From: Clostridia bacterium
GTDB taxonomy: Bacteria; Bacillota; Clostridia; Oscillospirales; Acutalibacteraceae
Direction of reading: 5' to 3'
NCBI GenBank assembly: GCA_900764115.1
Contig: CAAFMR010000343.1
Coordinates: 1 to 9,602 of the forward strand
Length of the DNA stretch: 9,602 nt
Shown here piece after piece: positions 1,298 through 9,602 of the stretch (position 1 is its first letter; every line of letters starts with the position of its first letter). Position numbers and translations under genes: made by a program. Under the pieces are notes generated by a model. It worked only from the letters and a program-made list of their open reading frames with translations, did no database searches and was not told the origin of the DNA.

Positions 1298-1936
1298 TTA
1301 TCCGTTTTTCGGCTTGTAATCGTGCATCTCCGGGATGGCTCCGCCTGCCACAGCCCAAAGATACAAGCTGGCTACGCTGCAATAGGGGCTGAATCGGCGG
1401 CGGTATTTTTCAAACAGCTGGCGGTCAATGCGGCGGTGATGATAAACCATGCGCAGCCCGCGCTGGATGGCAAGGTCGTCATAACTGAAAATATCCGGGC
1501 GCTGCAGACAAAAGAGCAGGATCATTTCTGCCGTCCAGACGCCAATACCCTTCAGACTGCTCAAAGCCCGGATAGCGTCTTCGTCGCTCATGTGTTCCAC
1601 TGCATCCAGACGGAACGCACCGGAATGGACTTTTTCGGCAAAATCCGTGATGTACTCCGCCTTACGGAATGTCATACCCAGCCCCTGCAGCCTGGGAACG
1701 CCGGCTGCCAGAATGGTTTCGGCGTTAACCTCCCCCAGCGCCCCCAGCATCCGCTGCCAAATGGTTGCCTGCGCCTTGGTCGAGATCTGCTGCCCGACGA
1801 TGTGGTGCACGACAGAGGAAAACAGATCGGTATCCACCACCCGGTCGATATGCCCGATGCGGTCAATGACTGCGCAAAGCCGCTTGTCCCTTTGCCGCAG
1901 ATAGGAAAGCGCGGTTTCCCCATATAGAAAATACAC
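1298..1936 (-). CDS. alkA: DNA-3-methyladenine glycosylase II (AlkA-like, HhH-GPD family)
   Basis: A base-excision-repair glycosylase that removes N3-alkylpurines from DNA. The helix-hairpin-helix motif is LKGIGVWTAE (residues 131-140 counted from the GTG at 1945), followed after about 15 residues by FSYDDLAIQRGL. The second Asp there (Asp157 in that count) matches the catalytic Asp of E. coli AlkA. An upstream segment with HHIVGQQISTKAQ (47-59) is the usual QQ-containing helix. It lacks the N-terminal domain of E. coli AlkA, like the short Gram-positive forms. Two GTG starts are possible. The one at 1945 sits directly on the ribosome binding site, while the one at 1936 lies 8 bases after AGAAGG, so I prefer 1936 (212 residues). 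It is the first gene of the alkA-ogt-HD group. No AdaA-type regulator is visible beside it. Confidence 0.9.
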   Translation of the reverse strand: MYFLYGETALSYLRQRDKRLCAVIDRIGHIDRVVDTDLFSSVVHHIVGQQISTKAQATIWQRMLGALGEVNAETILAAGVPRLQGLGMTFRKAEYITDFAEKVHSGAFRLDAVEHMSDEDAIRALSSLKGIGVWTAEMILLFCLQRPDIFSYDDLAIQRGLRMVYHHRRIDRQLFEKYRRRFSPYCSVASLYLWAVAGGAIPEMHDYKPKNG

Positions 1937-1942
1937 GTTTTT

Positions 1943-1950
1943 CACCTTCT
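1943..1950 (-). promoter_or_regulatory. ribosome binding site deciding the alkA start
   Basis: The minus strand reads AGAAGGTG, 7-8 bases before GTG 1936-1934. The GTG at 1945 is part of this same sequence and cannot be spaced from it, which favours the downstream start. Confidence 0.65.
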
Positions 1951-1975
1951 TGCAGTTCTCTGAGTGGATGATACG

Positions 1976-1984
1976 AGTATATCA
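1976..1984 (-). promoter_or_regulatory. candidate extended -10 promoter element of the alkA-ogt-HD operon
   Basis: The minus strand reads TGATATACT, i.e. TG-N-TATACT, an extended -10 for the housekeeping sigma factor, about 40 bp before the alkA start. No good TTGACA is seen at 16-18 bp; a weak ATGGCA lies about 19 bp upstream. Its position between the preceding operon's terminator and alkA supports an independent promoter. This is a pattern match only. Confidence 0.5.
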
Positions 1985-2047
1985 CATATACAGGAAAAAT
2001 GCCATCGGAAGATAACCTATATCAAAAGCTATCCGAACGCAGCAGGT

Positions 2048-2091
2048 AAAAAAGCACCGCGATCAGCCCAATATGGCTTCTCGCGGTGCTT
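2048..2091 (-). terminator. rho-independent terminator of the surface-protein operon
   Basis: On the minus strand an 11-bp perfect stem (AAGCACCGCGA at 2091-2081 pairing with 2062-2052) encloses an inner AGCC/GGCT stem (2078-2075 with 2068-2065), and a run of six T follows (2053-2048). It lies about 140 bp after the GH26-like gene stop and before the alkA promoter, so it separates the two transcription units. Confidence 0.9.
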
Positions 2092-2114
2092 CCTTTATTG
2101 CAAGTCCGGTTTAT

Positions 2115-2154
2115 GCGTATCGGGTTTGCACTTCGTCAACCCGAACCCGAACGC
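2115..2154 (-). repeat. inverted repeat in the 3' UTR of the GH26-like gene
   Basis: GCGT-A-TCGGGTT (2115-2126) pairs with AACCCGA-ACGC (2144-2154), giving 11 base pairs with one bulged A and a 17-base loop. The arm contains a tandem AACCCG duplication, so two registers are possible. There is no T-tract on either side, so it is not a terminator by itself. It could protect the 3' end of the transcript. Confidence 0.5.
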
Positions 2155-2186
2155 ACAGTGCCTTTTGGTGCTATCCCTGCCGTTTT

Positions 2187-2223
2187 CCGTTTGATTCAAT
2201 GGCGTATGGGGTGGCTCAAACGG
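2187..2223. repeat. inverted repeat just after the GH26-like gene stop
   Basis: CCGTTTGA (2187-2194) and TCAAACGG (2216-2223) form a perfect 8-bp stem with a 21-base loop. On the plus strand it is followed by CGTTTTT, which resembles a weak terminator, but no plus-strand gene is apparent upstream. On the minus strand it is the first hairpin of the 3' UTR. Confidence 0.45.
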
Positions 2224-2228
2224 CGTTT

Positions 2229-4505
2229 TTATGGCTGCTTTGCATTGCCTGCGGCGGTATGTGCCGCTTTTTTTCGGCGGCGCAGAAATACGACCACAAC
2301 AACGGCAGCCACAGCAATGATGCCGCAGCCGATGGCGGCATAGCCCCACCACGGGAATGCCTGCGCTGTCACGGTACGGGTCACCCGGCGTCGCTTGGTC
2401 GTTTTTTCCGGTTCGCTGTTCTGCGGCTCGTCGCTTGGGGCGGAATCGGTGGGCGCATCGATCTCCGCATCGTCGTCCCCGGTGAAATCCGGTTCAACAA
2501 AGGATGACTCCTCCTGGGAGGGGACGGACGCCGGCTGCGTGGTCAATAATCCGTACAGCTGCCATTCCACGATTGTCATTTGCCGGCTGTCGGCGCCCTG
2601 GGTAATGGCGTTGGGAGCCGTAATCAGCAGCCGGAAATACCGGGCATTCACCGGTGTCGTCAGCGTGCGGTCGGTGACGCTCAGACGGTTGTTTGTCACC
2701 GGGTCGGCGGTCAGCCAGTTCTGCCCATCCAGACTGTATTGGAGGGCAAAATCCTTCGTGTTGTAGTTGGATACGATCCCAACGCTGCCGGCATGACGCA
2801 CCACCCAGCGATTGACTGCATAGGTCGCGCCCAGATCCAGCATCAGCCAGCCGGTGCCGCTGTCGTCGGTTTGTCCCTCCCAGCGCGTATAGGCGCCGTC
2901 GTTGGCTTTCCAGGCGTCCGCGTCGTTGTCGCTGGCATATATATCCGCCTCGTGGGAAACCACCTGGGGCGCCAATACCTCCAGAGAACGGATCTTGCCT
3001 GCCGAGAGCAGCTGGCGTGCGTCCGCGGTGCCGGAAAGGTAGCTCCAGACGGTGCCCTGTCCGTTATCCTGGGAGAAGCAGCGCAGCGCATATCCGGTGT
3101 TGATGTGGAAGCTGGCAATATCCGCCGGGTCCAGCCCCAGCTCCTTTAGCTCTGCATAGCGATACAGCCGCTGCTCCAAGCCATACCATCCGCCGGTAAG
3201 GGTGTCGCCGTTTCCGCCGAAATTGGCAGTCGTATAGAGCTGCACCACCCCCGGCTTCTCCATATCCTGGTGCCGGTAATCCGGCAGCGCCTCCCGGTTG
3301 ATGGAAAAGGGGCTGTGTAAATACCAGTAGCCGTCGTCGTTGCCGTTTTCCGTATTGCCGTCGGTCTCGTTGAGCAGGGAATAGGCGCCGTCGCCCCAGC
3401 AATTCACCCAGCTGACCCGGGGCCAATTGGTTTGCATGGATTTCAGTGCCTGATACCAGCTTTGCCGTCCGTCCTTGGTGATGGATGCCCACATACCGGT
3501 GCGGCAGGAGGTCTCGGATAAGCCGATCGGTTTGCCGGTCTTGACAAACCAGCTGTAATCCTCAAATTGTGTCGGCACATAGGTGCCGCCCTCACCCGGT
3601 ATGGCAGAGGGATTTTCGGAATACATCGTGACGGAGAGCACGTCGATATAGGCGGCGCCGGGGTAGCAATCGCCGGTGGCGCTGGCAGCGCCGGGGGAGT
3701 AGGTCACCAGAAAGCCGGTCAGCCCCGATGCCTGCATCCGCTCCACCGTCTGCCGGTACACCCGGGTGAAGGCAGCCTTTCCCTCCTCGCCCGTGCCGAA
3801 AAAGGCGTGATAGTTGAATTCGATCCAGGGGCGCCACAGATACGCCTTGACGCCGTTGTCCTCCAACTGCTGCAGGGCAGCAATGAGGTTATCCTGATAG
3901 CGCACCCACGCCGCATAGGTCAACAGATCCCGGTCGGGATTGGTGCTGTCCAGCTCCCGGATGCCATCGGCGCCGGTCGGATATTCCTCCGGGTGGTTTT
4001 GCAGCAGAATCTGGGGGCAGATATTCCGCAGCACCCCGTCGCTGTGGATCAGCAGAATGTTCCCTTGGTCGTAATGCTGCTTGAGCTGTGCATTGGCTTG
4101 CGCCACGTTGGTGAACGCCAGCACGTCGTCATCCAGCTGATCGGCGGCGGTCGCCGTGCTGTTGACCGTCAGCAGCTTTTTCCCGGTATCCACTACATAA
4201 CGGGCTGAATACAGCCCCGGCTCCGCGCCGAATTGTTCCCGGATGCGGTTGTAGACTCCGCTGTCGGTCGCCATATCAAAGGTGCCGGTGATAAAGCTGT
4301 TGGTGTCGTTAAGGGTCTGCAGATATGCCAGCAGGTTTTTGGCTTCCCGGCTGGCATGGGGATTTACGGCGGACAGCTGAACCGCCGTTATATCCTCCTC
4401 CGGTGCGGTTGAATCTGCGCCGACAGCCGGCGCACTCCATGCGCAGGTCGCCAGCAGACAGATTGCCGCCAAAAACAGTAACGCCCGGTAACCGATTCGG
4501 TTCAT
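2229..4505 (-). CDS. secreted, membrane-anchored GH26-like glycoside hydrolase with beta/gamma-crystallin-like and F5/8 type C domains
   Basis: A 758-residue extracellular enzyme, probably an endo-acting beta-mannanase or related beta-glycanase. Order of parts: signal peptide (1-30); GH26-like TIM barrel (about 47-410); beta/gamma-crystallin-like domain (about 418-511), with LYTTANFGG in the first Greek key and GYALRCFSQDNGQG in the second; F5/8 type C (discoidin/CBM32-like) domain (about 513-652); acidic Pro/Ser/Thr linker (655-703); RRR patch; membrane helix (719-741) and RRRKK tail. No LPXTG motif is present, so it is held by the helix. The candidate acid/base is Glu229 in LWRPWIEFN and the nucleophile Glu331 in KPIGLSETS, 102 residues apart as expected for GH26. 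The His that usually precedes the acid/base (RP-x-HE) is Ile228, so this is a divergent member. The beta/gamma calcium motif looks degenerate. The start ATG overlaps the preceding gene's stop (ATGA), with AAAGGGGG about 10 bases upstream, implying translational coupling to the repeat protein. The substrate is inferred only from the family. Confidence 0.82.
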   Translation of the reverse strand: MNRIGYRALLFLAAICLLATCAWSAPAVGADSTAPEEDITAVQLSAVNPHASREAKNLLAYLQTLNDTNSFITGTFDMATDSGVYNRIREQFGAEPGLYSARYVVDTGKKLLTVNSTATAADQLDDDVLAFTNVAQANAQLKQHYDQGNILLIHSDGVLRNICPQILLQNHPEEYPTGADGIRELDSTNPDRDLLTYAAWVRYQDNLIAALQQLEDNGVKAYLWRPWIEFNYHAFFGTGEEGKAAFTRVYRQTVERMQASGLTGFLVTYSPGAASATGDCYPGAAYIDVLSVTMYSENPSAIPGEGGTYVPTQFEDYSWFVKTGKPIGLSETSCRTGMWASITKDGRQSWYQALKSMQTNWPRVSWVNCWGDGAYSLLNETDGNTENGNDDGYWYLHSPFSINREALPDYRHQDMEKPGVVQLYTTANFGGNGDTLTGGWYGLEQRLYRYAELKELGLDPADIASFHINTGYALRCFSQDNGQGTVWSYLSGTADARQLLSAGKIRSLEVLAPQVVSHEADIYASDNDADAWKANDGAYTRWEGQTDDSGTGWLMLDLGATYAVNRWVVRHAGSVGIVSNYNTKDFALQYSLDGQNWLTADPVTNNRLSVTDRTLTTPVNARYFRLLITAPNAITQGADSRQMTIVEWQLYGLLTTQPASVPSQEESSFVEPDFTGDDDAEIDAPTDSAPSDEPQNSEPEKTTKRRRVTRTVTAQAFPWWGYAAIGCGIIAVAAVVVVVFLRRRKKAAHTAAGNAKQP

Positions 4506-7500
4506 CCGCGTGCGCCCCCTTTCCGTTTACGCCGGAGCGACAATACCCCGATACCTGTCATCACGACGATAGCGCCGCTTAATATTCCGAACATTGCTAC
4601 AGCCCCTGGTGCCGCCTTCTGTGCGGCGCCTGCCACCTGTGTTTCGGTATAGCTGCCGCCCGCCACGCCGCAGCGCTGCGCCAGCCCGTCGCTGTAGACC
4701 AGCCGCACCAGCCGCAATGATGGAACGGCTTCGCCGATCAATGTGTTCTGCCCATCGGTGCGGGAATTGACCACCCGCACCACAGTATCGCCCTGTATGG
4801 CTCCCAGCCCCTGGCTATGCCCGCTTTCGTTGGCCATATATACATCCAGGCGGCGGTCGCCGTATTCCTCTGCCGTCATCACCGAGCCGTCCTGCTTAAT
4901 CAGGCGGAATTCATACACGGTGGTGTCCGTGGGGTCCACCCGCAGCCAGCCATCGTCCCACGCCCCCAGGAGAGAGTCCGGGCAGGCGAAGCGCTGCACC
5001 TCCAGATGGCTGATTGCCGTGTAGATATCCCGGTCGTCGTTATTGAGCGGATTGAGGGTCAGTGTATAGCCGGTTGCGGCGTCCCGGAAGGTGGTATTCG
5101 GGAAGGTCTCCACCCGATCCGCCGGCAGCGTACCGAACACTTCGATTTCGTTGACCCGGCACACGCCGTAGCCCAGCACATCGGAGGCATGGGCACGGGT
5201 CACCACGATGGCGACATACCGTCCTTGCCGGGGCTGGCTGAAGGTGACCCGCATACACCGCTTGCGCACGTCGGTGGCGGGATCTAGCACCGTGTTGCCG
5301 GCGTCATCCGTGACGGTCTTCTCGCCGCCGGAGGCATATACCCGGTTTTCCGGGGCAAACAGCTCCGTCAGCCGGGTGCCTACATAGAAATCGGCGCCGC
5401 CCAGATAGAGCCCCTTTTCCGCTGTGCTGGTCAGCAGGATTTCATTGATGTTCGCCGTGCCGCCCAGATAATAGATCAGCACTGTCCAGGGAGAATCGGT
5501 GTCAATATAATTGCCGTGCTGCCGTCCGTCCAGCGCATGGTTATACCAGCTGCAGCGGGTGTCGTACCGCCCGTCGGTCAGCCGCATCGCCGACTCCGTC
5601 CAGGTGAATGTGTGCAGATAGCCGTTGGCTTCCTCGTGGTACTTATCCGGCATACCCCGCTCGCAGATATATGCCTCCATGGGCGTTTTTCCCGCCAGCA
5701 GGTTTACCGCCGCATTCGGATCCTGCGGATCCCCCAGCAGCGTGCCGAAAGCGCCAATCTCTCCGATCCGCACCCGGCTGTACCAGTGGCTCTGCGCCGG
5801 AATCCGGAACGCCACATAGCGCCCGACGGTATTCTCCGGCAGCGCCAGCACCATACCGATGCTGTGCTGGAAATTGATATGGATGGCGGGCTGCTCCAGC
5901 AGTTCCACCAGCGTATCGCCGATGAAAACATCCGCCTCGTATATCCAATACGGCTCCCGATCCCAGGTGTTGGCAGCCAGCAGGATGTGCGTCAGCTGCG
6001 CATCCACCCCCAGATCGTACACTAGCACATTGTCCGGCGTCTTTTCGTAGACCATTCCGTTGTTCAGCCCTGTATTGGGTGCCTCCCGTTTCTGGGTGAT
6101 GCCCACAATAATGCCGTCGGTGGCGTTGGCTACCGGGGTCTCCGGCTCAATCGCCGCGCCGCCGGCGGTGCGGGGGGTCAGACCTCGTAGTAGATTATCA
6201 CCGGTGGGCAGCTTATCGACATCCGCCGTATCGTTCAGCCGGACGCCGTCGGTGGGCGCCTGCCCGGAGGCAGCGCCATAGGCTGCCAGCTCGCCGATAC
6301 GCAGCAGCCCATACCAGGGAGCCGACCAGAAACCGCCCGGGTTCTTGAAGGCAAAGCCCACATACCGACCGTAGGTCAGCTCGCCTTTGAGCTGATAGTT
6401 GCCCGCCGTCACATCCGCCGCCTCTGCCACCAGATGCTTCTCCTGATATAACGTCTCCCGGTCAAAGCCCACATACACCCGCACATTCTTCAGATATTGT
6501 TGAGCACCGTATTCCGAGCCGATGAGGAAGTGGGTAAATCCGACGATTGCCTCCGTGTCAAAGGTCAGCTGCGCCCATTGTCCCGCCGGCACGGTGGGAT
6601 TCAGGTTCAGCTGTACCCGATTGGCGTTATCCGCCTGCACCAGGACACCGTCGGTGAGCCATGCCAGCTCGCCTGCATCGGCTGTCCATTGTTCCCCGGT
6701 GCTGCCGATGGCGGGCAGCTTGCCGGCGATTTGGCTGTTCGCCTCCACCGTCTCTGCCGGTCGGTAAAAGCCCTTAGCCGTCTGGCTCCAGGGCACCTCC
6801 TCCGTCTCTGCTGTGCCGTATGCCGCCAATTCTCCGATGCGCAGCAGCCCATACCAGGGTGCTGACCAGAAGCCGCCCGGATTCTTGAAAGCAAAGCCCA
6901 CATACTGTCCGACGGTCTCATCCCCCCGGATGAAGTAATTTCCCAGCTGCACACCGGTAGCCTCCGCCACCAGGGAGGTATCGCTGTACAGCTCCGCCAG
7001 CTCTTTGCTGACATACACCTTCACATCCGTCAGATACTGCGCCTTTCCGGCTTCCGAACCAATCAGAAAGTGTGTGAACCGTACCACTGCCCCGGTGTCA
7101 AAGGTCAGCTGCGCCCATTGTCCTGCCGGCACGGTGGGATTGAGATTCAACTGCACCCGATTGGCGTTGTTGGACTGGATCAGGGCGCCGTCGGTGAGCC
7201 ACGTCAGCTCCCCGCCGTCGGCTGTCCATTGCTCTCCGGTGATGCCCCGGGTCGGCAGCAAGCCGGCAATCCGGCTGTTGCTCTCCGCCTGTTCCGCCGC
7301 CTGCACATATCCCTTGGTTGCCGGGGTGGCATCGCTCCAATCCAGGGCTGTGCTGCCATACACCGCCAGCTCGCCGAACCGGATCTCCCCATACCAGGGC
7401 GCCGACCAGTATCCGCAGGGATTAAGGAAGGTGAATCCCACATAGCGCCCGGTTTTGGCGGTGCCCCGGATGAAGTAATTGCCCAGCGTCACTTCGGTGA

Positions 7501-7987
7501 CCTCCGCCACCTTGTTGGTATCCTCATACAGCGTTTCCAGAGCGTCGCTCACATACACCCGCACATCCGTCAGGTATTGCGCCTGCCCCGGCTCCGAGCC
7601 GATGAGAAAGCGGTCGATTTCCGTCGCCGCATCCAGCGTGAAGGTGAATGCCGCCCAGCTGCCTTTGTTGTAGTCGTGCTTCCACAGCTCATACAGCACC
7701 CGGTCGGCTGCAGTTGTGCAGAATTGCCCGTCCGTCAGCTTATCGGCGGCGGCAGAGCCGCTCTTGACCTCCCACGCCGTGTCGGTGGTGCCGACGGTGG
7801 GGATTTTTCCGGTGATAAGGCTGCCCGCCGGCACCGAGTCGGCGGCGATATACTGCCCCAATACCCCGTCGGTCGCCGCCGACCAGTCCGGGCTTTCCGC
7901 CGCTGCCGCCCGTCCAAAGCCTACGCTTGCCGCGGCTACTGTCAGCGTCAGGGATAACAACCACGCCAGTAGTTTTCTCTTATGCAT
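4502..7987 (-). CDS. large secreted, membrane-anchored protein with five repeated F5/8 type C-like (galactose-binding fold) modules
   Basis: 1161 residues from the ATG at 7987; an ATG at 8053 would add 22. I prefer 7987: AAAGGCGGG lies 5 bases before it and the signal peptide begins there (MHKRKLLAWLLSLTLTVAAA), while the 8053 start has no ribosome site and would translate a GC-rich palindrome. In residue numbers from 8053, modules lie at 57-233, 239-413, 422-593 (closely related), and about 612-771 and 781-974 (diverged). Each has a variant of LTHFLIGSE...QYL..V.VYV, then GRYVGF.FKNPGG, and ends R-I-G-E-L-A-A-Y-G. About 985-1135 is an unrecognised domain. The end is a membrane helix (1151-1173) with RRKRK; there is no LPXTG motif. 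No catalytic motif is visible, so I infer a carbohydrate-binding or scaffolding role at the cell surface. It lies between a paralogue upstream and the GH26-like enzyme, whose ATG overlaps its TGA. The module is F5/8C-like by pattern and may be a distinct family. Confidence 0.78.
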   Translation of the reverse strand: MHKRKLLAWLLSLTLTVAAASVGFGRAAAAESPDWSAATDGVLGQYIAADSVPAGSLITGKIPTVGTTDTAWEVKSGSAAADKLTDGQFCTTAADRVLYELWKHDYNKGSWAAFTFTLDAATEIDRFLIGSEPGQAQYLTDVRVYVSDALETLYEDTNKVAEVTEVTLGNYFIRGTAKTGRYVGFTFLNPCGYWSAPWYGEIRFGELAVYGSTALDWSDATPATKGYVQAAEQAESNSRIAGLLPTRGITGEQWTADGGELTWLTDGALIQSNNANRVQLNLNPTVPAGQWAQLTFDTGAVVRFTHFLIGSEAGKAQYLTDVKVYVSKELAELYSDTSLVAEATGVQLGNYFIRGDETVGQYVGFAFKNPGGFWSAPWYGLLRIGELAAYGTAETEEVPWSQTAKGFYRPAETVEANSQIAGKLPAIGSTGEQWTADAGELAWLTDGVLVQADNANRVQLNLNPTVPAGQWAQLTFDTEAIVGFTHFLIGSEYGAQQYLKNVRVYVGFDRETLYQEKHLVAEAADVTAGNYQLKGELTYGRYVGFAFKNPGGFWSAPWYGLLRIGELAAYGAASGQAPTDGVRLNDTADVDKLPTGDNLLRGLTPRTAGGAAIEPETPVANATDGIIVGITQKREAPNTGLNNGMVYEKTPDNVLVYDLGVDAQLTHILLAANTWDREPYWIYEADVFIGDTLVELLEQPAIHINFQHSIGMVLALPENTVGRYVAFRIPAQSHWYSRVRIGEIGAFGTLLGDPQDPNAAVNLLAGKTPMEAYICERGMPDKYHEEANGYLHTFTWTESAMRLTDGRYDTRCSWYNHALDGRQHGNYIDTDSPWTVLIYYLGGTANINEILLTSTAEKGLYLGGADFYVGTRLTELFAPENRVYASGGEKTVTDDAGNTVLDPATDVRKRCMRVTFSQPRQGRYVAIVVTRAHASDVLGYGVCRVNEIEVFGTLPADRVETFPNTTFRDAATGYTLTLNPLNNDDRDIYTAISHLEVQRFACPDSLLGAWDDGWLRVDPTDTTVYEFRLIKQDGSVMTAEEYGDRRLDVYMANESGHSQGLGAIQGDTVVRVVNSRTDGQNTLIGEAVPSLRLVRLVYSDGLAQRCGVAGGSYTETQVAGAAQKAAPGAVAMFGILSGAIVVMTGIGVLSLRRKRKGGARG
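6275..6790 (-). repeat. binding module 3 of the membrane-anchored repeat protein
   Basis: It begins WSQTAKGFYRPAETVEANSQ and ends RIGELAAYG. It is closest to module 2: both contain NRVQLNLNPTVPAGQWAQ and NPGGFWSAPWYGLLRIGEL, also similar at the DNA level (for example around 6298-6364 against 6838-6904). Its FLIGSEYGAQQYLKNVR segment instead resembles the last module of the upstream paralogue. Confidence 0.8.
6815..7339 (-). repeat. binding module 2 of the membrane-anchored repeat protein
   Basis: It begins WSDATPATKGYVQAAEQ and ends RIGELAAYG. It shares long near-identical stretches with module 3 at protein and DNA level, consistent with a recent internal duplication. Confidence 0.8.
7355..7885 (-). 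repeat. binding module 1 of the membrane-anchored repeat protein
   Basis: It begins WSAATDGVLGQYIAADS and ends RFGELAVYG. It is most similar to the first visible module of the upstream paralogue, including a DNA block (7736-7859) identical to 9479-9602. Confidence 0.85.
7736..7859 (-). repeat. 124-bp perfect direct repeat, copy 1
   Basis: Every base matches 9479-9602. The match starts right after a mismatch at 7735/9478 and runs to the window edge, so its true length is unknown. It encodes the N-terminal part of module 1 (from GQYIAADS to about AAADKL). Confidence 0.97.
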
Positions 7988-8003
7988 ACGTGCCCGCCTT
8001 TCT

Positions 8004-8035
8004 ACGGCGCCCCCCCGCAGCGGGGGAGACGCCGT
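8004..8035. repeat. GC-rich palindrome between the two repeat-protein genes
   Basis: ACGGCG (8004-8009) pairs with CGCCGT (8030-8035), and a C run (8011-8016) pairs with GGGGG (8022-8026) around a GCAGC centre. It sits between the stop of the upstream paralogue (8060) and the start at 7987. It is not followed by a T-tract in the direction of transcription, so it is not a standard terminator. It could be a REP-like dispersed palindrome or an mRNA-stability hairpin that adjusts expression of the two genes. Confidence 0.6.
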
Positions 8036-8059
8036 TTGAATGGAGTTCTTCATTGCCGC

Positions 8060-9602
8060 TTATGACAGCAGATCGCTGACGGAGCGGGAGACGGTCTCCC
8101 CGTACAGAATTTTGGTTCCGGCGGCGCTCTCATATTCCACATACGGCGCGGCATAGAGGGTTACCGATTCCTTGCCCGCCGGGATTTTCGCGATCACCGC
8201 CGTAAACCGCACCGTCTTTTTCTCCACGGCATACAGGTTTTGCGCTATCACATTCAGGATATGCTTGTCGTCCACATCGTCTTTGGTTAATTCCTCGCCA
8301 AAATTGGCTGTGTTGGAGACGATCGCGCCCATATCCAGCAGCTTGCACTTCTCTCCGTTAACGGTGATGTACGCCTTATCCAAATTGCGGGCATAATTAT
8401 GCGCCTGCGCCGGGTCGGCGCTGGCATAGGTGATACCGGTGCCGGCAACATCGAATCCAAACCGCAGCGCATAGCCGTCGGTGGCAGCGGGATCCCGCAG
8501 CTGCGCCCCGCCGGAGGACAGCACCACCGGCTCCCCGTATGCTGCCAGCTCGCCGATGCGCAGCAGACCATTCCAGGGCGGCGACCAATATCCGCCGGGG
8601 TTCTTGAAGGTAAAGCCCACATACCGTCCGGTGGCTGTTTCGCCTTTGAGATAATAGTTGCCCAGCATGCCCTCCGATACTTCCGTCACTAAGGATGCCT
8701 CGCTGTATAGCTCTGCCAAGCTACTGCTGACATAGATGCGTACATTCTTCAGATATTGTTGAGTGCCGTATTCCGAGCCGATGAGAAAGTGCGTCAGCCG
8801 CGCCGTGTACCCTATATCAAAGGTCAGTTGTGCCCACTGCTGCGCTCCCACGCCGACAGCCTGGAGATTTAGCTTCACCCGATCCGCGTTGTCTGCATTG
8901 GTCAGGATCAATGTGCCGTTTGTTATGTAAGAAAGCGGTTTGGTATCCTCCCAGGTGCAGAGCGGCCATTCATCGCCGTTGATGCCCCGGGTTGGCTCCA
9001 GCCCGGCGATGAGACTGCCCGGCTGTAGCCGCCCGTCTGCGGCAACGCACTGCCCTTTCGCCACCTCCGTGGCGTATGTCCAGTCCGGCTCGCCCACGCC
9101 GTACACCGCCAGCTCGCCAAACCGGATTTGATCATACCAGGGTGCGCCTGAACCGCCGGGGTTTTTGAAGGTAAAGCCTACATAGCATCCGGTCTTAACA
9201 GCGCCCCGGATGAAGTAGTTTCCCAGCGTGACACCGGTGACCTCTGCCACCTTATTGGCGTCCTCATACAGCGTTTCCAGCGTCTCGCTCACATACACCC
9301 GCGCATCCGTCAGATATTGGGCGCTGCCGGCCTCCGAGCCGATGAGAAAGCGGTCGATTTCTGTCGCCGCATCCAGCGTAAAGGTGAACGCCGCCCAGCT
9401 GCCGCTGTAGTAGCCGCGGGGTGACAGGTCATATATCACCCGCTCGGTTGTATTATTGGTGCAGAATCGCCCGTCCGGCAGCTTATCGGCGGCGGCAGAG
9501 CCGCTCTTGACCTCCCACGCCGTGTCGGTGGTGCCGACGGTGGGGATTTTTCCGGTGATAAGGCTGCCCGCCGGCACCGAGTCGGCGGCGATATACTGCC
9601 CC
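8060..9602 (-). CDS. repeat protein paralogue with two visible F5/8 type C-like modules and a soluble C-terminal domain (5' end outside the window)
   Basis: The frame is open to the window edge (first residues GQYIAADSVPAGSL), so the start and presumed signal peptide are outside; the GTG at 9577 is an internal Val. Visible parts, counted from 9577: module a (to residue 160), module b (166-348), and a C-terminal domain (about 354-505) with YALRFGFDV, KLLDMGAIVSNTANFG, VRFTAVIAKIPAG and APYVEYES, ending GETVSRSVSDLLS. That domain resembles beta-rich C-terminal domains in uncharacterised clostridial surface proteins (from memory). Unlike its downstream paralogue it has no membrane helix or sorting motif, so it is probably released or held non-covalently. 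No catalytic motif is visible; a polysaccharide-binding role is inferred. The next gene starts 72 bp downstream on the same strand, with a GC-rich palindrome between them. Confidence 0.75.
   Translation of the reverse strand, partial: GQYIAADSVPAGSLITGKIPTVGTTDTAWEVKSGSAAADKLPDGRFCTNNTTERVIYDLSPRGYYSGSWAAFTFTLDAATEIDRFLIGSEAGSAQYLTDARVYVSETLETLYEDANKVAEVTGVTLGNYFIRGAVKTGCYVGFTFKNPGGSGAPWYDQIRFGELAVYGVGEPDWTYATEVAKGQCVAADGRLQPGSLIAGLEPTRGINGDEWPLCTWEDTKPLSYITNGTLILTNADNADRVKLNLQAVGVGAQQWAQLTFDIGYTARLTHFLIGSEYGTQQYLKNVRIYVSSSLAELYSEASLVTEVSEGMLGNYYLKGETATGRYVGFTFKNPGGYWSPPWNGLLRIGELAAYGEPVVLSSGGAQLRDPAATDGYALRFGFDVAGTGITYASADPAQAHNYARNLDKAYITVNGEKCKLLDMGAIVSNTANFGEELTKDDVDDKHILNVIAQNLYAVEKKTVRFTAVIAKIPAGKESVTLYAAPYVEYESAAGTKILYGETVSRSVSDLLS
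8534..9082 (-). repeat. binding module b of the unanchored repeat protein
   Basis: It begins WTYATEVAKGQCVAADG and ends RIGELAAYG. FLIGSEYGTQQYLKNVR and GNYYLKGE tie it to module 3 of the anchored paralogue, while its N-terminal part (SLIAGLEPTRGINGDEW) is closer to module 2. This is a mosaic pattern. Confidence 0.8.
9098..9602 (-). repeat. binding module a of the unanchored repeat protein (cut by the window edge)
   Basis: It is a close copy of module 1 of the anchored paralogue, ending RFGELAVYG. It differs in the middle (NNTTERVIYDLSPRGYYSG in place of TAADRVLYELWKHDYNKG) and by a one-codon length change, while the flanking DNA is identical or nearly so. Confidence 0.85.
9479..9602 (-). 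repeat. 124-bp perfect direct repeat, copy 2
   Basis: Identical base for base to 7736-7859 at an offset of 1743 bp. It reaches the window edge and may continue. Confidence 0.97.

Follow-up and report, generated by a model that had tools for sequence, protein, structure and literature searches.

Non-catalytic surface proteins that carry several carbohydrate-binding modules and stand beside separate enzymes are exemplified by the Sas proteins of Ruminococcus bromii, whose modules are starch-specific. Here we describe a locus of three genes, G1, G2 and G3, in a 9,602-nucleotide stretch of a Clostridia bacterium genome (assembly GCA_900764115.1, contig CAAFMR010000343.1; hereafter the window), in which a GH26 enzyme with a predicted anchor (G3) is encoded with a putatively anchored (G2) and a free (G1) repeat protein of predicted F5/8 type C (F5/8C) fold, and which we think fairly likely to serve in holding and cutting a polysaccharide at the cell surface. 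The closest described enzyme is RiGH26 of the gut Firmicute Roseburia intestinalis, a surface-displayed, multi-module GH26 protein whose own binding modules capture beta-mannan ahead of cleavage; in the available part of its description, Ig-like domains and a Pro-Gly-rich region are named as the likely means of attachment, its upregulation is shared by an ABC transporter, GH130 enzymes and esterases, and separate surface binding proteins go unnamed (PMC6385246). In Bacteroides ovatus, according to the accessible part of the report, a galactomannan polysaccharide utilization locus encodes BoMan26A and BoMan26B, one of these enzymes being surface-exposed, together with two glycan-binding proteins (PMC5217682).

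The GH26 enzyme and its anchor

G3 matches the GH26 family PF02156 at 53.5 bits (curated cut-off, 20.2), as do 28 of the 29 rows of the G3-family alignment (A1) at E 0.001. The acid/base and nucleophile, E229 and E331, are invariant in all 29 rows and align with the catalytic glutamates of 6q75 and 7eet, and the predicted model is a clan GH-A barrel resembling solved GH26 enzymes. Judged by sequence and model, G3 has all the GH26 family features tested (sequence match, barrel and catalytic pair), which bears out the GH26-like enzyme of a preliminary description of this DNA. The closest solved folds are beta-mannanases, and a mannan-type backbone is our first guess for the substrate. The residue preceding the acid/base is histidine in the three distinct solved enzymes compared and Val or Ile in 29/29 family rows, a replacement that accompanies the clade signature GKPxG-x-x-E-x-SCR. 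We found 30 relatives of G3 (P0001-P0030), the first of them differing from it at 4 residues.

Two accessory domains follow. The middle domain, overlooked in the earlier account, was recognised as a beta/gamma-crystallin with the 29-row profile (Clostrillin 3sny, E 4.3e-11; protein S 1prr, E 4.6e-11); scanned singly against Pfam the piece gave no match, and the assignment thus depends on the profile. The last domain resembles CBM32 / F5/8 type C proteins (EndoD 2xqx, ZmpB 7jnd) both in its above-cut-off profile match to PF00754 and in its beta-sandwich fold. A literature search, with most subscription papers outside its coverage, returned no paper combining ‘crystallin domain’ with ‘GH26’.

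Both G2 and G3 possess hydrophobic N-terminal stretches and C-terminal helices, which support a probable location at the cell surface, as proposed earlier together with the anchoring of these two proteins, which we likewise predict from sequence. By hydropathy, 29 of the 30 G3 relatives carry a C-terminal helix, and in every one of these 29 it is preceded by a basic collar (4-8 Lys/Arg within 30 residues) and, before the collar region, by an acidic linker (9-17 acidic residues in 30). The exception, P0030, has in place of the membrane tail a domain that resembles the C-terminal one of G1 (E 1e-23). Among the 15 relatives P0031-P0045, eight exceed the helix threshold, with 0-3 basic residues before the helix, and seven fall below it. 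A basic tail also follows the helix, in G3 as in all 29 of these relatives, so that basic residues flank it on both sides. These could act as a sorting or wall-binding signal; anchoring by a membrane helix accounts for the collar more simply than a new sorting signal would. Sortase anchoring of G1-G3 was rejected, no LPxT[GA] or NPxTG motif being found in the three proteins, as was membership of a cellulosome, the Pfam scan having identified no dockerin or cohesin family.

Repeat proteins and module exchange

The seven modules of G1 and G2 are all interlinked by BLAST. Modules m1-m3 of G2 share 46-69% identity, and a structure model of middling confidence predicts the F5/8C beta-sandwich for all three, thereby giving a fold to part of what had been described simply as binding repeats. 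In Pfam, only G2 m1 scores above the F5/8C cut-off (39.5 bits), with G2 m2 (E 0.029) and m5 (E 0.24) below it and the other four modules unmatched; likeness to CBM32 / F5/8 type C proteins is one of predicted fold for G2 m1-m3, with six of the seven modules under the cut-off. Fold matches of the modules include fucose- and GalNAc-binding folds, namely fucolectin (3cqo), the ZmpB CBM32 (7jnd/7jnf) and lectinolysin (3lei), the two-module rows having root-mean-square deviations of 14-15, and F5/8C folds with protein ligands also rank among the module matches.

G1 has no membrane helix by hydropathy and none of its seven G1-type relatives (548-566 amino acids) has one beyond residue 40, as expected of the unanchored protein first proposed. 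Its C-terminal domain is present in 11 of 52 proteins, and its recurrence in four that are not G1-type (P0030, P0042, P0043 and P0045) suggests that, at the C-terminus, it may stand in as an alternative domain for attachment or surface exposure. The possibility that G1 is an assembly artefact of G2 was rejected: the full-length relative P0046 has an N-terminus and a C-terminal domain distinct from those of G2. In three large relatives (P0041, P0042 and P0043) the same module type is fused to GDSL esterase domains, to which P0042 adds a nucleoside-hydrolase domain.

G1 and G2 also appear to have exchanged modules. At the contig end, 144 nucleotides of G1 are 99% identical to G2, and the identity profile drops beyond this probable gene-conversion tract; the window ends inside the repeat, which probably caused the contig break. 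We grouped the sequences by identity into lineage A (the window, P0032 and P0046-P0048) and lineage B (P0033 and P0049-P0052). Within lineage B, the four G1-type proteins share 93-96% identity in m1 with the G2-type P0033, compared with 70-77% in all 25 pairs between the lineages, and the five lineage-B m1 modules form one clade in the tree (support 100/100). Module m2 of P0051 is 98% identical to that of P0033 versus 70% to its own type. In lineage A, G1-type and G2-type m1 modules are 79-90% identical (6 pairs), and the tree leaves their branching order open. These patterns are best explained if the two genes recombine with each other within a single genome, and the sequences suggest exchange that is strongly indicated in lineage B and more weakly in lineage A; such recombination probably keeps module 1 similar and may occasionally swap module 2. 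Chimeric assembly could account for single cases such as P0051.

Locus layout and relatives

An open reading frame list and Pfam scan place six genes in the window, all on the minus strand (Table 1), confirming the consecutive same-strand trio and the ATGA overlap of its last two members noted previously. The sequence AAAGGGGG lies immediately 5' of the G3 start, and position 7987 is the better start for G2, given AAAGGCGG upstream and agreement with the starts of P0031-P0033; this leaves a 72-base gap after the G1 stop. The hairpin in this gap, absent from the list of a terminator-like scan, may act in processing or stabilising the mRNA and could yield differing protein amounts off one mRNA. 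The terminator 3' of G3 is missing from the scanner's list because the scanner limits loops to 8. A promoter scan of positions 1900-9602 gave two minus-strand hits, at 5532 within G2 and at 2005-1976 upstream of alkA, and these are weak evidence because counts were not above those of shuffles (3 found against 2.9 expected). Taken together, the layout suggests that G1-G2-G3 are probably co-transcribed as a single unit ending ahead of alkA. The GC content of the DNA is near 60%, which along with features of the proteins gives the impression of a gut Clostridia lineage.

Table 1. Positions of the genes, domains and other elements in the window
Feature	Position	Strand	Remarks
G1	8060..9602	-	No-helix repeat protein; 5' end beyond window edge; 513 of ~556 amino acids present
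G1 m1	9601-9092	-	
G1 m2	9091-8522	-	
G1 C-terminal domain	8521-8063	-	~150 amino acids; no Pfam match
144-nucleotide G1 stretch	9459..9602	-	99% identical to G2 7716-7859; probable gene-conversion tract
Hairpin	8035-8004	-	14 bp, GC-rich, no T run (RNA fold); between G1 stop and G2 ribosome site
G2	4502..7987	-	1161 amino acids; module-repeat protein with C-terminal helix
G2 m1	7888-7349	-	
G2 m2	7348-6806	-	
G2 m3	6805-6266	-	
G2 m4	6265-5723	-	Divergent
G2 m5	5722-5120	-	Divergent
G2 C-terminal domain	5119-4613	-	
G2 C-terminal hydrophobic helix, then RRKRK	4544..4600	-	Hydropathy 2.17 over 19 residues
ATGA, G2 stop / G3 start overlap	4505-4502	-	
G3	2229..4505	-	758-amino-acid GH26 enzyme with C-terminal helix; PF02156, PF00754, PF22633
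G3 GH26 catalytic domain	3258..4388	-	
G3 acid/base Glu229	3821-3819	-	
G3 nucleophile Glu331	3515-3513	-	
G3 beta/gamma-crystallin domain	2976..3254	-	Limits approximate; 29-row profile
G3 F5/8C (CBM32-like) domain	2547..2975	-	
G3 basic juxtamembrane collar (KRRRVTRTVT..PWW) and C-terminal helix	2283..2400	-	Acidic linker on N-terminal side
Intrinsic terminator 3' of G3	2091-2048	-	11-bp outer stem, -28.5 kcal/mol, T6 (RNA fold)
alkA-like DNA glycosylase	1945-1298	-	Downstream of G3
O6-methylguanine-DNA methyltransferase	1238-705	-	
HD-domain protein	625-182	-	

The reported absence of a transporter or regulator holds for these six genes, and that of a sortase motif for G1-G3; because the window stops within G1, the lack of a transporter or regulator carries little weight. 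All three genes have relatives at parallel distances (P0002, 67% to G3; P0033, 67% to G2; P0050, 60% to G1), and our guess is that P0002 belongs to lineage B. Contigs recorded for the clusters of these and other relatives reach 57.5 kb (P0046), 17.4 kb (P0001) and 104 kb (P0033 and P0050). Scans of genome contigs gave 10 pattern-matching stretches with the GH26 alignment and 39 with that of G2 (G1 was not included), and scans of viral contigs with A1, A2, G1 and G3 gave 62, 6, 1 and 4, respectively; none was confirmed in either set. As a scan of this kind relies on short peptide patterns, two to six each time, absence is no proof. A plasmid and phage search gave nothing for G2 (G1 was not included) and weak, partial matches for G3, among them a 24.5% likeness to a ‘glycosyl hydrolase’ in three Klebsiella plasmid records. 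Three other scaffolds carry copies of the alkA-like gene at 69-79% identity, of which L004 and L005 are human-faecal scaffolds deposited as phage and L006 is an IMG/VR contig; none of these alkA-bearing stretches carries G1-G3. By its open reading frames L004 looks bacterial rather than phage, and the alkA-like gene may be mobile between lineages.

Competing readings and comparison with known systems

In the hold-and-cut reading, G2 and G3 would be exported and anchored through their C-terminal helices, and the modules would bind glycan with avidity from seven copies. G2 would keep the polymer close to the membrane, G1 would form a coat or bridge on it outside, and G3 would cut a beta-linked backbone, with mannan-type as first guess, by the retaining GH26 reaction, releasing products to a transporter that would be encoded beyond the window. 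Of the supporting features, domain order, catalytic pair, overlap and terminator are sequence-based; those that come from models are the GH26 barrel and the predicted F5/8C fold of G2 m1-m3. A more specific version, which we hold to be doubtful, envisages a hitherto undescribed surface capture-and-cut machine in an uncultured lineage. Its GH26 clade, the active site rewired, would act on some polysaccharide that is not plain mannan, would be held on the cell by its acidic stalk, basic collar and membrane helix, and would be fed by free and anchored lectin arrays whose modules vary continually as the two neighbouring genes recombine.

The same data can be divided differently. The modules of G1 and G2 might act as adhesins that position the cell, on host mucin glycans or on some other surface, with G3 separately digesting passing dietary or microbial polysaccharide and gene order reflecting shared regulation rather than a common substrate. 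The fucose- and GalNAc-binding folds among the module matches fit this proposal, as does the assignment of CBM32 to host mucin O-glycans in mucin foragers, taken from the accessible part of a review (PMC13003330), and G3 carries its own F5/8C domain and so would have no need of G2; the ATGA overlap, which suggests matched dosage of G2 and G3, speaks against it, and we regard such split roles as unlikely. It is improbable that G3 trims exopolysaccharide of its own cell or a neighbour, with the repeat proteins as matrix proteins that bind it: a pairing of unanchored and anchored binders would suit a matrix, and the missing nutrient transporter and the weak Klebsiella plasmid likeness of G3 point the same way, but the nearest solved folds are beta-mannanases and no glycosyltransferase or export gene is among the six scanned (with the window cut, this and the missing transporter weigh little). 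Finally, the modules might bind proteins, lipids or other partners rather than glycans, making G1-G2 a surface scaffold or adhesin apart from glycan use. F5/8C folds with protein ligands do appear among the matches and six modules lie below the Pfam cut-off; a neighbouring glycoside hydrolase gene and the fusion of modules to GDSL esterase domains in three relatives, one with a nucleoside-hydrolase domain as well, render this very improbable.

If the hold-and-cut reading is right, one membrane-anchored hydrolase and a pair of lectin-array proteins can make up a surface polysaccharide-degrading station that uses neither sortase nor dockerin parts, the altered active site of this GH26 clade raises a testable question of specificity, and the locus offers a natural case of binding-module exchange between paralogues that bears on the retuning of bacterial sticking. 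Likely, these are familiar parts in a new arrangement, the combination not having been met in the searches made; the literature search, with the coverage given above, found no description of a three-gene arrangement like G1-G2-G3. Compared by description only, the Sas proteins resemble G1 and G2 in having several binding modules with the enzymes separate, and differ in their starch specificity. The B. ovatus locus, in the part of its account available, likewise encodes GH26 enzymes with dedicated glycan-binding proteins, but belongs to a Gram-negative with an outer membrane, and its binding proteins too are likened to G1 and G2 by description, not by sequence (PMC5217682). Bacterial beta/gamma-crystallins such as Clostrillin and protein S are like the G3 domain by profile, which differs in sitting between GH26 and F5/8C. 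The preliminary description had placed the system beyond the common LPXTG and cellulosome schemes; this was overstated, a surface GH26 with its own binding modules being known from R. intestinalis, as the available part of that report describes (PMC6385246). G3 resembles RiGH26 in this respect and is set apart by its beta/gamma-crystallin and F5/8C domains, its C-terminal helix and its two repeat-protein neighbours.
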